A stretch of 64,000 nucleotides of DNA from Arcticibacter svalbardensis MN12-7 (GTDB lineage Bacteria; Bacteroidota; Bacteroidia; Sphingobacteriales; Sphingobacteriaceae): positions 1 through 64,000 of the forward strand of contig NZ_AQPN01000043.1 in NCBI RefSeq assembly GCF_000403135.1, written 5' to 3'. The position numbers and the translations under genes are program-made. This document shows, piece after piece, positions 5,684 to 60,721 of this stretch. Numbering within the stretch: the first letter of the stretch is position 1; each line of letters starts with the position of its first letter. Below the pieces are notes generated by a model. The model had not been told where the DNA came from. It worked only from the letters and a program-made list of their open reading frames with translations, and did not search any database.

Positions 5684-6529
5684 ATGAAACCAGATATTGA
5701 AAAATTAACTGACATTGCGACTCAGGTTCGTCGGGATATTGTAAGAATGGTACATCAGTGCCAGTCAGGTCACCCCGGCGGTTCTTTAGGTTGTGCAGAT
5801 TATTTTACAGCCCTTTATTTTCATGTATTAAAGCATAATCCAGACTTTAATATGGATGGAACGGGCGAAGATCTTTTCTTTCTTTCCAATGGACACATTT
5901 CTGCAGCATGGTATAGTGTGCTTGCCCGTTCGGGATACTTTGAAATTAAAGAACTTTCTACTTTCCGCAAAATAAATTCACGTGTTCAGGGTCATCCTGC
6001 AACGCATGATCATCTTCCGGGAATTCGTGTTGCTTCCGGTTCTCTTGGACAGGGTTTATCTGTTGCTATCGGTGCAGCGCTTGCTAAAAAACTTAATGGC
6101 GACGATCGGTTAGTTTACACCCTTCATGGTGATGGTGAACTACAGGAAGGTCAGATTTGGGAAGCTGCCTTATTTGCTCCTCATAACAAGGTTGACAATT
6201 TAATTTCTACCATTGACGTAAATGGCCAGCAAATAGATGGTCCTACGGATAGAGTACTTTCTTTGGGAAATTTACACGCTAAGTGGGAAGCTTTTGGTTG
6301 GGATGTTCTGGAAACAAATGGAAATGACATGGAAGCACTAGTTGCTACCCTTGATTTGGCTAAAAGCAGAGCATTTAAAGGTAAACCAATTATGATCCTG
6401 ATGCATACTAATATGGGTCACGGTGTGGACTTCATGATGGGTTCTCATAAATGGCATGGTGTTGCACCTAATGATGAACAGTTAGCCGCAGCGCTTGCTC
6501 AACTTACATGTTCTACCCAAGACTATTAG
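5684..6529 (+). CDS. Transketolase, N-terminal subunit
   Basis: The 281-residue protein corresponds to the thiamine-diphosphate-binding half of transketolase. It carries QSGHPGGSLGCADY near residue 27 and the ThDP/metal motif HGDGELQEGQIWEA near 149-162. With the next gene it should form a two-gene transketolase that moves two-carbon units between sugar phosphates in the non-oxidative pentose phosphate pathway. Split transketolases are common in Bacteroidota and archaea. The subunit length of about 280 is normal, so this is not a frameshifted gene. The partner starts 22 nt downstream in the same operon. Confidence 0.95.
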   Translation: MKPDIEKLTDIATQVRRDIVRMVHQCQSGHPGGSLGCADYFTALYFHVLKHNPDFNMDGTGEDLFFLSNGHISAAWYSVLARSGYFEIKELSTFRKINSRVQGHPATHDHLPGIRVASGSLGQGLSVAIGAALAKKLNGDDRLVYTLHGDGELQEGQIWEAALFAPHNKVDNLISTIDVNGQQIDGPTDRVLSLGNLHAKWEAFGWDVLETNGNDMEALVATLDLAKSRAFKGKPIMILMHTNMGHGVDFMMGSHKWHGVAPNDEQLAAALAQLTCSTQDY

Positions 6530-33930: not shown

Positions 33931-33967
33931 AAAAAGAGGCGACCGATCAGGTCGTCTCTTTTTTTTT
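33931..33967 (+). terminator. Rho-independent terminator of the topA operon
   Basis: GAGGCGACC / GGTCGTCTC with a 5-nt loop and one G:T pair is flanked by an A-tract and a run of nine T residues. Confidence 0.9.
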
Positions 33968-34062
33968 GTTTTATTATTAGAAAGCAGACAAATAGATCTA
34001 GTCTTTAAATTCCACATACTGAACTAAGGTAAATCTAACATCAAATAATGGTCAGATTTACG

Positions 34063-34190
34063 GTGATGCCACAGTGATGCCACGGTGACGCCACAGTGAG
34101 GCCACGTTTTTGCGTCAAAAGGTGGCCTCACTGTGGCGTCACTGTGGCATCACCCTTGCGTCAAGGATAATCTGATGGTAATCTGAAGGT
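34063..34190. repeat. Inverted array of 11-bp repeats
   Basis: Four tandem 11-nt units run from 34063 to 34106: GTGATGCCACA, GTGATGCCACG, GTGACGCCACA and GTGAGGCCACG. Three reverse-complement units lie at 34122-34153, in the order that makes a long imperfect stem. The loop holds TTGCGTCAA, which occurs again at 34156-34164. Two further 11-nt units, AATCTGATGGT and AATCTGAAGGT, follow at 34169-34190, and a partial complement of them (ATGGTCAGATTTAC) precedes the left arm. No ORF covers the array. The whole 417-nt spacer (33903-34319) otherwise holds only the topA-operon terminator and presumably the rnr promoter. Confidence 0.9.
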
Positions 34191-34319
34191 AACTTGTTTA
34201 ATCCTTTTGATCTAAAAGACTACCATCGATCGTAGTAATTTTATATATTCGATCCAGATAAAAGGCAAATTTATTAACTTGGCCTTTTACGATCAATACA
34301 TCTGAAATAACCATGAACT

Positions 34320-36449
34320 ATGGCAAAAAAAAAATCCAACCATCTGATAGTTGTTTTTACGCAACTCATCACTGATATCTTGGAAAAGGGAGGTAACACT
34401 CCTATGAATTATAAACAGATTGCTTCAAAACTAAATTTGACTGACCCCGAATCACGGGAGACCATATTATTAGTATTGCAGGAGGAGACCCATAAAGGAA
34501 TCTTTTCTGAACCTCAAAAGGGCAAATTTCAACTGAAAGAACTTAAAACCATTGTCACAGGTAAAGTTTCAATGACCAGTGATGGCTCTGCTTTCATTGT
34601 ACCTGATGATGACCTTGAGGAAGACATCTACATCGCTCCCCGAAAAGTAGGGATCGCGCTAAATAACGATAAAGTCCGCGCTTACGTTTTTGCAAACACC
34701 AAAGGCAGAAGAAAAGAGGGCGAGATCATCGAAATCCTGGCCCGTGCCAAAATGGATTTTACGGGAATCGTAAAGATCTCAGATAACTTCGCTTTTTTTA
34801 TACCGGACGACCGCAAGATGCTGAGGGATATTTTTATTCCATTAGAAAAGCTGAACGGAGCTAAACACGGAGAAAAAGCAGTTGCCAAAATCACGAACTG
34901 GCCCGACGATGCGAAGAATCCACTAGGAGAAATCACTACCGTATTGGGTAAACAGGGTGAAAACGATACCGAAATGACCGCTATTCTGGCCGAATACGGG
35001 TTTCCTTTAAAATTTCCAAAAGAAGTAGAGCAGGAAGCGGACGCAATTAAGGATGGGATTACAGCAAAGGAAATTGCGAAGAGAAGAGATTTCCGCGACA
35101 TCCTGACCTTTACAATTGACCCTGCAGACGCAAAAGACTTTGATGATGCGATTTCCTATCGTGTGCTGGAAAATGGAAACTATGAAATAGGGGTTCATAT
35201 TGCGGATGTTTCGCATTACGTCATCCCCGGTACAGCATTGGATACGGAAGCCTTTGAACGGGGTACTTCAGTATACCTGGTCGATCGTGTGATCCCGATG
35301 TTGCCGGAGCGGCTTTCGAACGGAGTATGTTCATTACGTCCAAACGAAGACAAATTAACTTTCTCAGCGGTATTTGAGCTGGACAAAAAAGCGAATGTTA
35401 TTGAACAATGGTTTGGAAAGACTATCATCCATTCCAACAGACGTTTCAGTTATGAAGAAGCACAGGAAGTGATTGAAGGCAAATCAGAAGATCTGAAGGA
35501 CGAAATCCTGAAACTGAATGAACTTGCTTATATCCTGAGGGACAAAAAATTTAAACAGGGAGCGATCAGTTTTGAGACTTCTGAAGTGAAGTTTAAGCTT
35601 GATGAAGCGGGTAAACCTATCGGTGTATACGTGAAGGAACGCAAGGATGCACATAAACTGATTGAAGATTATATGTTGCTGGCCAACAGAAAGGTGGCTG
35701 AGCTGATTGCAAAAAAAGGAAAGGGTAAAAACAAATACACGTTTGTATACCGTTCGCATGATGCACCAAAGGAAACCGCTTTACTTAGTTTTGCGCAGTT
35801 TGCTGGTAAATTTGGCTATAAAATCAATACCTCTTCCAGTAAAGAAGTGGCCAAATCGCTCAACCAGTTAATGGAGGATGTGGAAGGCAAAAAAGAACAA
35901 AATGTGCTGACTCATCTGGCAATCCGCTCCATGGCAAAAGCCGTTTATACCACGAAGAAATCCAGTCACTATGGCCTGGCTTTCGATTATTATACCCACT
36001 TTACCTCTCCTATCCGCCGCTCACCCGATGTGATGGTGCACCGTTTGTTGCAACATTACCTGGATGGAGGGAAGTCCGTGAATGAAGAAGAGTACGAAAA
36101 ACTGTGTCTCCATGCTTCACAAATGGAGAAGAAGGCAGCAGATGCAGAACGTGCTTCGGTTAAATATAAACAAGCTGAGTATCTTCAGGACAATATTGGT
36201 AAAGAATACAATGGTATTATTTCCGGTGTTACTGAATGGGGCATGTTTGTGGAGATTGAAGAAAATAAATGCGAAGGCATGATACGGCTTCGGGATATCT
36301 CAGATGATTTCTATGTATTAGACGAGAAGAATTACTGTATCATCGGTCAGCGCAAAAAGAAGAAATATCAGCTGGGAGATGAAGTCAGGATCCTGGTGAA
36401 AAAAGTAGAATTGGCTAAACGTCAGATTGACTTTAAATTATTGCATTAA
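34320..36449 (+). CDS. rnr: Ribonuclease R
   Basis: RNase R (709 residues) is a processive 3'-5' exoribonuclease of the RNB family that degrades structured RNA. An N-terminal helix-turn-helix segment (residues 1-65) and cold-shock-like domains are followed by the RNB core. Its metal-binding motif is DPADAKDFDDAIS near 266-278. YTHFTSPIRRSPDVMVHRLL is near 560, and a C-terminal S1 domain (YNGIISGVTEWGMFVEIEENKCEG) completes the protein. The gene is followed after 20 nt by a polyprenyl synthetase gene. Confidence 0.95.
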   Translation: MAKKKSNHLIVVFTQLITDILEKGGNTPMNYKQIASKLNLTDPESRETILLVLQEETHKGIFSEPQKGKFQLKELKTIVTGKVSMTSDGSAFIVPDDDLEEDIYIAPRKVGIALNNDKVRAYVFANTKGRRKEGEIIEILARAKMDFTGIVKISDNFAFFIPDDRKMLRDIFIPLEKLNGAKHGEKAVAKITNWPDDAKNPLGEITTVLGKQGENDTEMTAILAEYGFPLKFPKEVEQEADAIKDGITAKEIAKRRDFRDILTFTIDPADAKDFDDAISYRVLENGNYEIGVHIADVSHYVIPGTALDTEAFERGTSVYLVDRVIPMLPERLSNGVCSLRPNEDKLTFSAVFELDKKANVIEQWFGKTIIHSNRRFSYEEAQEVIEGKSEDLKDEILKLNELAYILRDKKFKQGAISFETSEVKFKLDEAGKPIGVYVKERKDAHKLIEDYMLLANRKVAELIAKKGKGKNKYTFVYRSHDAPKETALLSFAQFAGKFGYKINTSSSKEVAKSLNQLMEDVEGKKEQNVLTHLAIRSMAKAVYTTKKSSHYGLAFDYYTHFTSPIRRSPDVMVHRLLQHYLDGGKSVNEEEYEKLCLHASQMEKKAADAERASVKYKQAEYLQDNIGKEYNGIISGVTEWGMFVEIEENKCEGMIRLRDISDDFYVLDEKNYCIIGQRKKKKYQLGDEVRILVKKVELAKRQIDFKLLH

Positions 36450-37919: not shown

Positions 37920-38231
37920 TTACAAACTAATACTTGTGATTGCAATCTTTGTGAACTGTTGACGATGACCGTTCTTTTTCTTGTATCCTTTACGACGTTT
38001 CTTTTTGAATACAATCACTTTATCTCCTTTTAAATGAGTTAAGATCGTTGCTGAAACTTTCGCACCAACTAAAGAGGGAACACCTACTTTAATATTACTT
38101 CCGTCTACAGCTAACAATACCTGATCAAATTCAACACTAGCGCCTTCTTCTCCTTGTAAGCGATGTACAAAGATCTGCTGGTCTTTTGCAACCTTGAATT
38201 GCTGTCCTGCTATATTTACTATTGCGTACAT
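37920..38231 (-). CDS. rplU: 50S ribosomal protein L21
   Basis: L21 (103 residues) is a 23S rRNA-binding protein of the large subunit. It begins MYAIVNIAGQQFKVAKDQQ and has the basic core FKKKRRKGYKKKNGHRQQFT. It forms the standard rplU-rpmA pair. The upstream promoter is one of the best matches to the Bacteroidota consensus in this window. The leader is too short to hold a known ribosomal-protein autoregulatory RNA. Confidence 0.97.
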   Translation of the reverse strand: MYAIVNIAGQQFKVAKDQQIFVHRLQGEEGASVEFDQVLLAVDGSNIKVGVPSLVGAKVSATILTHLKGDKVIVFKKKRRKGYKKKNGHRQQFTKIAITSISL

Positions 38232-38292: not shown

Positions 38293-38502
38293 GCATGTGT
38301 ATATAAATGCGCATAATAATTAATTTGAGTAGTTTTTGAGGTACTAAACTACACACCGTGGTGATGTTCTACATATTCTACTTACAAGTAGAATCCATTA
38401 AGCATTCATAACGAGCGTTTTAGCTATATTTCTAACAGTGGCACGGTAATGCTACGAGGGTTTATATAAATAATTGAATAATTTAATTTAAAACAATATA
38501 AC

Positions 38503-60064: not shown

Positions 60065-60595
60065 ATGGCAACTAATTGGAAAATTGATCCTACGCACAGT
60101 GAAATTCAGTTTAAAGTGAAACATTTGATGATCACTACAGTCACTGGTAACTTTAACGAATTTGAGGGGTCAGCCACTACTGAATCAGACGATTTCGGTA
60201 CCGGTTCTCAAAGTGAATTTACAGCAACTATTAGTTCAATCAGCACCAATAACGAACAACGCGATGAACACTTAAAGTCTGCAGACTTTTTTGATGCTGC
60301 TCAATACCCAACCTTATCCTTTAAAAGCACTAAAACTGAAGGTTCAGGAGATGATATCAAAATATATGGTGACCTGACTATTAAAGGAGTAACAAAACCA
60401 GTTGTTCTGAATGCCGAGTTCGGTGGCATAGTAGTTGATCCTTACGGACAAACAAAAGCAGGTTTTACAGTATCAGGTAAAATCAGCAGAAAAGAGTTTG
60501 GCCTTACCTGGAGTGCTGTTACTGAAGCAGGATCAGTTGTTGTAAGTGACGACATTAGATTATTAGCTGAAGTACAATTTGTTAAGCAGGGATAA
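60065..60595 (+). CDS. YceI-family lipocalin-like protein
   Basis: The protein (176 residues) has no signal peptide and is a complete YceI domain: WKIDPTHSEIQFKVKHL, TVTGNFNEFEGSATT, DYFDAA-type SADFFDAAQYPTLSFKST, then GDLTIKGVTKPVVLNAEFGG. YceI barrels bind polyisoprenoid-type lipids. Cytoplasmic variants without a leader are common in Bacteroidota. The stop codon lies at the start of a tandem repeat. Confidence 0.95.
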   Translation: MATNWKIDPTHSEIQFKVKHLMITTVTGNFNEFEGSATTESDDFGTGSQSEFTATISSISTNNEQRDEHLKSADFFDAAQYPTLSFKSTKTEGSGDDIKIYGDLTIKGVTKPVVLNAEFGGIVVDPYGQTKAGFTVSGKISRKEFGLTWSAVTEAGSVVVSDDIRLLAEVQFVKQG

Positions 60596-60721
60596 TTCAA
60601 TGATTGAAAAACAATTGCACATGCATAGTTCAATCATTAAAAAACAATAATTCGAGCATTAGTTAATAATTGAATATTTATAGTATAAGCATAGTTCAAT
60701 CATTAAAAAACAATAGTAAAT
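60590..60721. repeat. 33-bp tandem repeat (4 degenerate copies) after yceI
   Basis: Four 33-nt units run in register: 60590-60622, 60623-60655, 60656-60688 and 60689-60721. Copies 2 and 4 share an identical 27-bp stretch (60623-60649 and 60689-60715, core TTCAATCATTAAAAAACAAT). Copies 1 and 3 are degenerate; copy 1 overlaps the yceI stop codon. The array ends just before a terminator, so it is transcribed as the 3' untranslated part of yceI mRNA. Confidence 0.85.

Follow-up and report, generated by a model that had tools for sequence, protein, structure and literature searches.

Dispersed extragenic inverted repeats tied to a cognate gene are known from REPIN-RAYT systems, in which the gene is accompanied by the same repeat type and this type differs by gene copy (PMC3116915). 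Repeats of 11 bp are known from plasmids, where ParR of R1 binds given at least two 11-bp repeats and the operon is preceded by the parC repeats (PMC9426499). Within the Bacteroidota, the BrickBuilt MITE of Porphyromonas gingivalis has 23-bp tandem units with a leader and a tail (PMC4596501).

Here we describe an array of 11-bp units in Arcticibacter svalbardensis MN12-7, found in a window of 64,000 nucleotides (the whole stretch of DNA analysed; contig NZ_AQPN01000043.1, positions 1 to 64,000), together with a partner gene found beside related arrays. The genome carrying the window is denoted G000; other G- and L-numbers denote comparison genomes and loci. The array resembles REPIN-RAYT in layout only, with extragenic inverted pairs, a cognate gene beside the same repeat type and one type per gene. 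It differs in that the partner is not a Y1/HUH transposase, in that arrays of ~192 bp built from 11-bp units replace paired short REPs, and in that there are 8-12 copies per genome, not hundreds, and no hairpin coupling of the arms. A search for the Y1 transposase (PF01797) gave 0 matches in G000, while the same profile matches 5 of 14 control genomes; mobilisation of the arrays by a Y1/RAYT enzyme was rejected because G000 has no Y1 gene.

The likeness to ParR-parC (R1 type, low-copy plasmids) is one of geometry only, namely 11-bp repeats upstream of a gene, whereas the present arrays have two inverted arms, are chromosomal and are multicopy. By sequence, the partner has no ribbon-helix-helix match in Pfam or PDB, and no actin-like gene was noticed beside it; the genes on either side of the three Arcticibacter gene-linked copies are other ORFs. 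BrickBuilt shares tandem units inside an intergenic, multicopy inverted-repeat element in the Bacteroidota, but its units are 23 bp, its architecture with leader and tail is another one, and its abstract reports no partner gene (PMC4596501). By these features, the array and its partner belong to neither REPIN-RAYT nor ParR-parC.

Architecture of the array

The initial annotation of the window described a palindromic array of 11-nt units at 34063-34190, with four forward and three reversed copies. The block is real: seven exact GTGANGCCAC units, four forward and three reversed, occupy 34063-34153 at 11-bp spacing. Allowing one mismatch, the unit matches the window 13 times against 5.9 expected, a count reached in 0 of 100 shuffles. 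In a scan for palindromes with 11-bp periodicity the array scores 2.08, and the best of five window shuffles 1.34. The runner-up of that scan in the window is a 33-bp tandem repeat of 3.8 copies (ATAGTTCAATCATTAAAAAACAATAGTACAAGC) at 60592-60718. The extent given initially was too short, since the element spans about 34018-34209 once its outer arms are included. Its parts and neighbours are as follows.

34018-34209, no strand: whole array element, about 192 bp, from comparison with other genome copies
34018-34061, no strand: left outer arm, four degenerate 11-bp units ACTGAACTAAG GTAAATCTAAC ATCAAATAATG GTCAGATTTAC; family consensus about RTCAGATTAAG
34062-34105, + strand: left inner arm, units GGTGATGCCAC AGTGATGCCAC GGTGACGCCAC AGTGAGGCCAC
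34106-34121, - strand: asymmetric 16-bp centre GTTTTTGCGTCAAAAG (CTTTTGACGCAAAAAC on the - strand)
34122-34165, - strand: right inner arm, three GTGGCNTCAC units and a diverged fourth, CTTGCGTCAAG (34155-34165)
34166-34209, no strand: right outer arm GATAATCTGAT GGTAATCTGAA GGTAACTTGTT TAATCCTTTTG, from 11-bp phase and information content
33932-33965, + strand: separate hairpin then T run, judged by eye to be a likely terminator for the genes before it
34320-36449, + strand: gene that, following the initial annotation, we take to be rnr (RNase R); a neighbour, not the partner gene, starting about 110 bp beyond the right arm

The element thus consists of two inverted arms, each with four inner and about four weaker outer 11-bp units, and lies between rnr and a 134-aa ORF downstream of topA. 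The inner units follow the consensus RGTGANGCCAC; the outer units differ in consensus and stay in 11-bp phase. Across the eight full G000 copies, outer units 5-8 of the arms carry information content over background in this phase, and in G004, which has the clearest outer units, lags 11 and 22 are the two top flank autocorrelations on either side. The 16-bp centre reads CTTTT-N6-AAAAC in one orientation, a layout common to all 28 full Arcticibacter copies, one of which has 17 bp.

This architecture also accounts for words that had been listed separately. Of the two reported occurrences of TTGCGTCAA, the one outside the array is the diverged fourth right-arm unit CTTGCGTCAAG, and the one in the loop is part of the conserved centre. 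The two further units listed there (AATCTGATGGT and AATCTGAAGGT) belong to the outer arms and keep to the 11-bp phase. A weak echo reported near 38445 amounts to at most two unit-like words and has no score in the array scan; these letters (38433-38456, CAGTGGCACGGTAATGCTACG), upstream of a minus-strand gene at 37920-38231, look like two decayed units and may be a remnant or chance.

Copies in Arcticibacter genomes

G000 holds eight full copies and one half copy of the array, and two congeners hold 8 and 12. All 29 Arcticibacter sites are extragenic, lying between main ORFs as proposed for the window copy, in tandem, divergent and convergent settings alike and beside many unrelated genes. A few short ORFs that overlap G004 arrays look like chance frames. 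The initial annotation had named the absence of any such array from close relatives as a refutation, and arrays are present there. The array could also be a neutral satellite or an assembly artefact. Slippage can yield tandem 11-mers, and L111 offers a pure satellite of a similar unit, but unlinked arrays in several genomes and genera share a fixed 4+4 units per arm and a conserved centre, which leaves this explanation next to negligible. The L111 satellite (about 2410-2540, Verrucomicrobiia MAG) is a pure tandem GTGAAGCCACC repeat with no palindrome and is probably unrelated.

G001 has orthologous arrays for seven of the G000 sites, and at one further site G000 carries the G001 array minus its centre. 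At two other sites G001 has a palindromic block of different spelling in the same place; in one of these (C10/C23) the centre is nearly identical. In orthologous arrays the inner units are 82-98% identical, while outer units and flanks drift (flanks 26-89%), in agreement with the selection on the units proposed at the outset. That proposal had also pointed to a preserved unit order. Orthologous arrays do resemble each other more than non-orthologous arrays do (0.90 vs 0.825, p 0.0014), but the order differs between sites.

Every site compared between G000 and G001 is an array or a remnant in both, with no clean empty site, and no target-site duplication was seen by eye at the arrays. The sites that are fixed yet altered in spelling suggest, from sequence comparison, rewriting or conversion rather than recent jumping. 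The G004 sites mostly differ from those of G000, which suggests dispersal on a longer timescale. Genomes with different spellings have some sites in common: a solo array adjoins an mraZ-like gene in G002 as well as in G004, and a purH-linked site is occupied by a solo array in G004 and by a gene module in G000. Arrays lacking the centre or one arm were seen in G000 on contigs 43 (146056-146100) and 44 (about 59000), a loss that would be expected of unstable long palindromes.

Duplex DNA or folded stem

The initial annotation noted that the arms can fold into a long stem, and the predicted RNA fold of the array is very stable (-95.9 kcal/mol, z -11.7). Such a fold follows from inverted copies of one unit. 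If the stem were selected, the two arms of an element should be closer to each other than to the arms of other elements. This is not the case: the arm-to-arm match shows no excess within over between elements (permutation p 0.97, 0.999 and 0.38), nor is there coupling of the arms at the N position of the unit (p 0.10, 0.13 and 0.30). In other genera the arms are visibly non-complementary along their length. An Rfam search with the array gave no match, and the separate hairpin and T run just upstream (33932-33965) are a likely terminator, so that termination here does not call for the array. A structural RNA or cruciform, in which a stem acting as terminator, RNase III substrate or recombination hairpin is the functional form, is for these reasons very improbable, and a hairpin as the selected form was rejected on the negative arm-coupling test. 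The geometry agrees instead with the other part of the initial proposal, that one unit per helical turn is what would be expected of a protein bound along one face of the duplex.

A recurrent partner gene

Of the genes that adjoin about 64 arrays, those for one protein family recur far more often than any others, at 12 loci in 12 genomes and three genera. The partner protein is ~280 aa long, and the array lies roughly 100-350 bp upstream of its start codon (90-312 bp at the 12 loci). In G000 the partner gene is on contig 43 at 146.2 kb (146214-147062), outside the window, with an array of the same type upstream. A second neighbour cluster consists of topoisomerases at four loci in four genomes (L134, L143, L158 and L163; topA, topB-like in L158), two of them the same site in sister genomes. 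At L163 the array lies between the partner gene and topA.

The partner family has no significant match in Pfam, NCBIfam, PHROGs, the PADLOC models of anti-phage defence or PDB. It has no recognisable DNA-binding domain, no similarity to any transposase family and no homologue on the viral contigs. An AlphaFold2 model from two sequences was poor (pLDDT 44), and no fold search was based on it. In four genomes of the genus (L218, L219, L235 and L270), the partner gene is directly followed by a DUF6266-like (PF19781) gene. Profile comparison of DUF6266 with the partner gives a weak match over the full length (hhalign E 7e-4, probability 26%), but the partner family has no PF19781 match above the Pfam cut-off.

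A search of 399 Sphingobacteriaceae genomes found family members in 162. In 21 of 26 members, picked by protein homology only and not all independent, the 420 bp upstream show their strongest periodicity at lag 11, against 16 of 350 control regions, which came from Arcticibacter loci only. G000 itself has 23 family copies, of which the one on contig 43 belongs to the array-linked group; the 22 lower-scoring paralogs have merely short, weak palindromes upstream.

A second gene group (MATIDxKGMVHGTAGSVIYR...) forms about 20 dispersed close copies in G000 (L246-L267, e.g. contig 135, 2183-2956), and many of them are preceded, at about 150-320 bp, by an AAGTCSGACTT palindrome. These copies are modules, with homology running from around the upstream palindrome to the end of the gene (14 of 22 loci compared).

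The array and its partner could form a REPIN-like mobile element, in which a transposase-like or DNA-processing partner moves non-autonomous solo arrays and there is no host function. The module-like spread of these G000 paralogs favours this reading, as do the G004 sites that are mostly unlike those of G000 and the combination of dispersed extragenic inverted repeats with a cognate gene and one spelling per gene, as in REPIN-RAYT (PMC3116915). We regard it as rather unlikely, given a partner that resembles no transposase family in a genome lacking Y1 transposases, the lack of any clean empty site between G000 and G001, and no target-site duplication seen by eye.

Spellings across the Sphingobacteriaceae

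In an exact-pattern genome scan, the named species with repeated matches were Arcticibacter. The restriction to this genus that such scans suggested was overturned once mismatches were allowed: the same architecture occurs with other spellings in other Sphingobacteriaceae (GTGAGTCCAC, GTGAGTGCAC, ATGAGTGCGC, GTGAGTCCGC, GTGAGTACGC and others). Reversed-pattern controls in the mismatch-tolerant searches were near zero, and pattern searches of this kind detect only spellings near the query. When the class was searched with the centre only, no array turned up beyond the family; the closing bases of the few non-family centre matches pair, unlike those of the arrays. Five head-to-tail GTGGCNTCACT units in the spelling of the window were seen on a viral contig (L118, IMGVR_UViG_3300011116_001022, about 5890-5950).

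Before searching, we fixed the prediction that the gene-linked spelling recurs at solo sites in G002 and G192 (TGAGTGCAC; GTGAGTGCAC, ATGAGTGCAC) and in G243 (TGAGTGCGC; ATGAGTGCGC), and that these spellings are absent from G000, G001, G004, G400 and G372. G002, G192 and G243 gave 26, 16 and 10 matches of the predicted spelling, and G000, G001 and G004 gave 0 each; the reversed-pattern control had no match in these six genomes. The matches listed for G243 were the predicted TGAGTGCGC. G400 and G372 matched 5 and 7 times, only at two mismatches and in GTCC forms near their own spelling; for these two genomes the predicted absence held only for the exact spelling. Solo sites inspected in G002, G005, G192 and G243 have the expected layout, with no partner-family gene within the 2-3 kb inspected.

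The genome G005 has two gene copies with different spellings. Its solo arrays form two groups: C12, C30 and C2:122k resemble most the array at gene C80 (identity 0.64-0.69), and C37 and C1 the one at gene C2:282k (0.71 and 0.56), with cross-identities of 0.50-0.53. These sets weigh on a regulon in which an unrelated transcription factor binds the arrays and the recurring gene is its most conserved target. Arrays upstream of the partner gene and beside many unrelated genes would fit such a regulon, but a single outside factor does not explain two spelling sets, each matched by different solo arrays, and solo arrays occupy tandem, divergent and convergent intergenic regions alike. We consider a regulon of this kind improbable. 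Across the family, the gene-linked spelling predicts the spelling of the dispersed arrays, which on sequence evidence points to an undescribed protein-DNA recognition system.

Discussion

We favour, with a probability of roughly 0.6, a cognate pair in which the partner protein binds its own array cooperatively and the solo arrays are dispersed sites of the same protein. The array in the window would then be one solo representative of a DNA recognition element that is built of several units and acts as duplex. Most likely, the partner would bind each 11-bp unit on one helix face, cooperatively along both arms, and the T4-N6-A4 centre may bend the DNA and so bring the arms face to face. An array at the partner gene would give autoregulation, while the solo arrays would serve as dispersed chromosomal sites of the protein, having perhaps first spread from the gene-linked copy in a REPIN-like manner and then been kept. 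Copy numbers, recurrence of the gene, lag 11 upstream of it, the predicted spellings, the two G005 groups, conservation of the units and the lack of arm coupling support this model. Counting against it are the lack of a recognisable DNA-binding domain, the poor structural model and the weak palindromes at the 22 paralogs. Shared spelling could also come about without protein binding, if solo arrays are copies of the gene-linked array, or another factor could bind all arrays with the partner gene as one target.

More tentatively, the paralogous proteins may share an undescribed DNA-binding fold and each have its own array, such that drift in specificity causes arrays at fixed, unlinked sites to be rewritten together with the gene-linked one and the pairs act as orthogonal chromosomal organisers or regulators. 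We hold this extension to be possible rather than probable.

No earlier description of the array or the partner was found in the open-access literature searched, and our claim of novelty rests on this and on the absence of the partner from family libraries. The layout has an analogue, but neither array nor partner fits any family tested.

For the Sphingobacteriaceae, the finding ties an unannotated repeat to an unannotated protein family present in 162 of the 399 genomes. The matched protein-DNA pairs come with natural spelling variants, so their specificity can be put to a direct test. Pairs that prove orthogonal would supply a natural set of distinct DNA-recognition pairs; should the protein move the arrays, the system would be mobile and REPIN-like, with an enzyme of a new kind.
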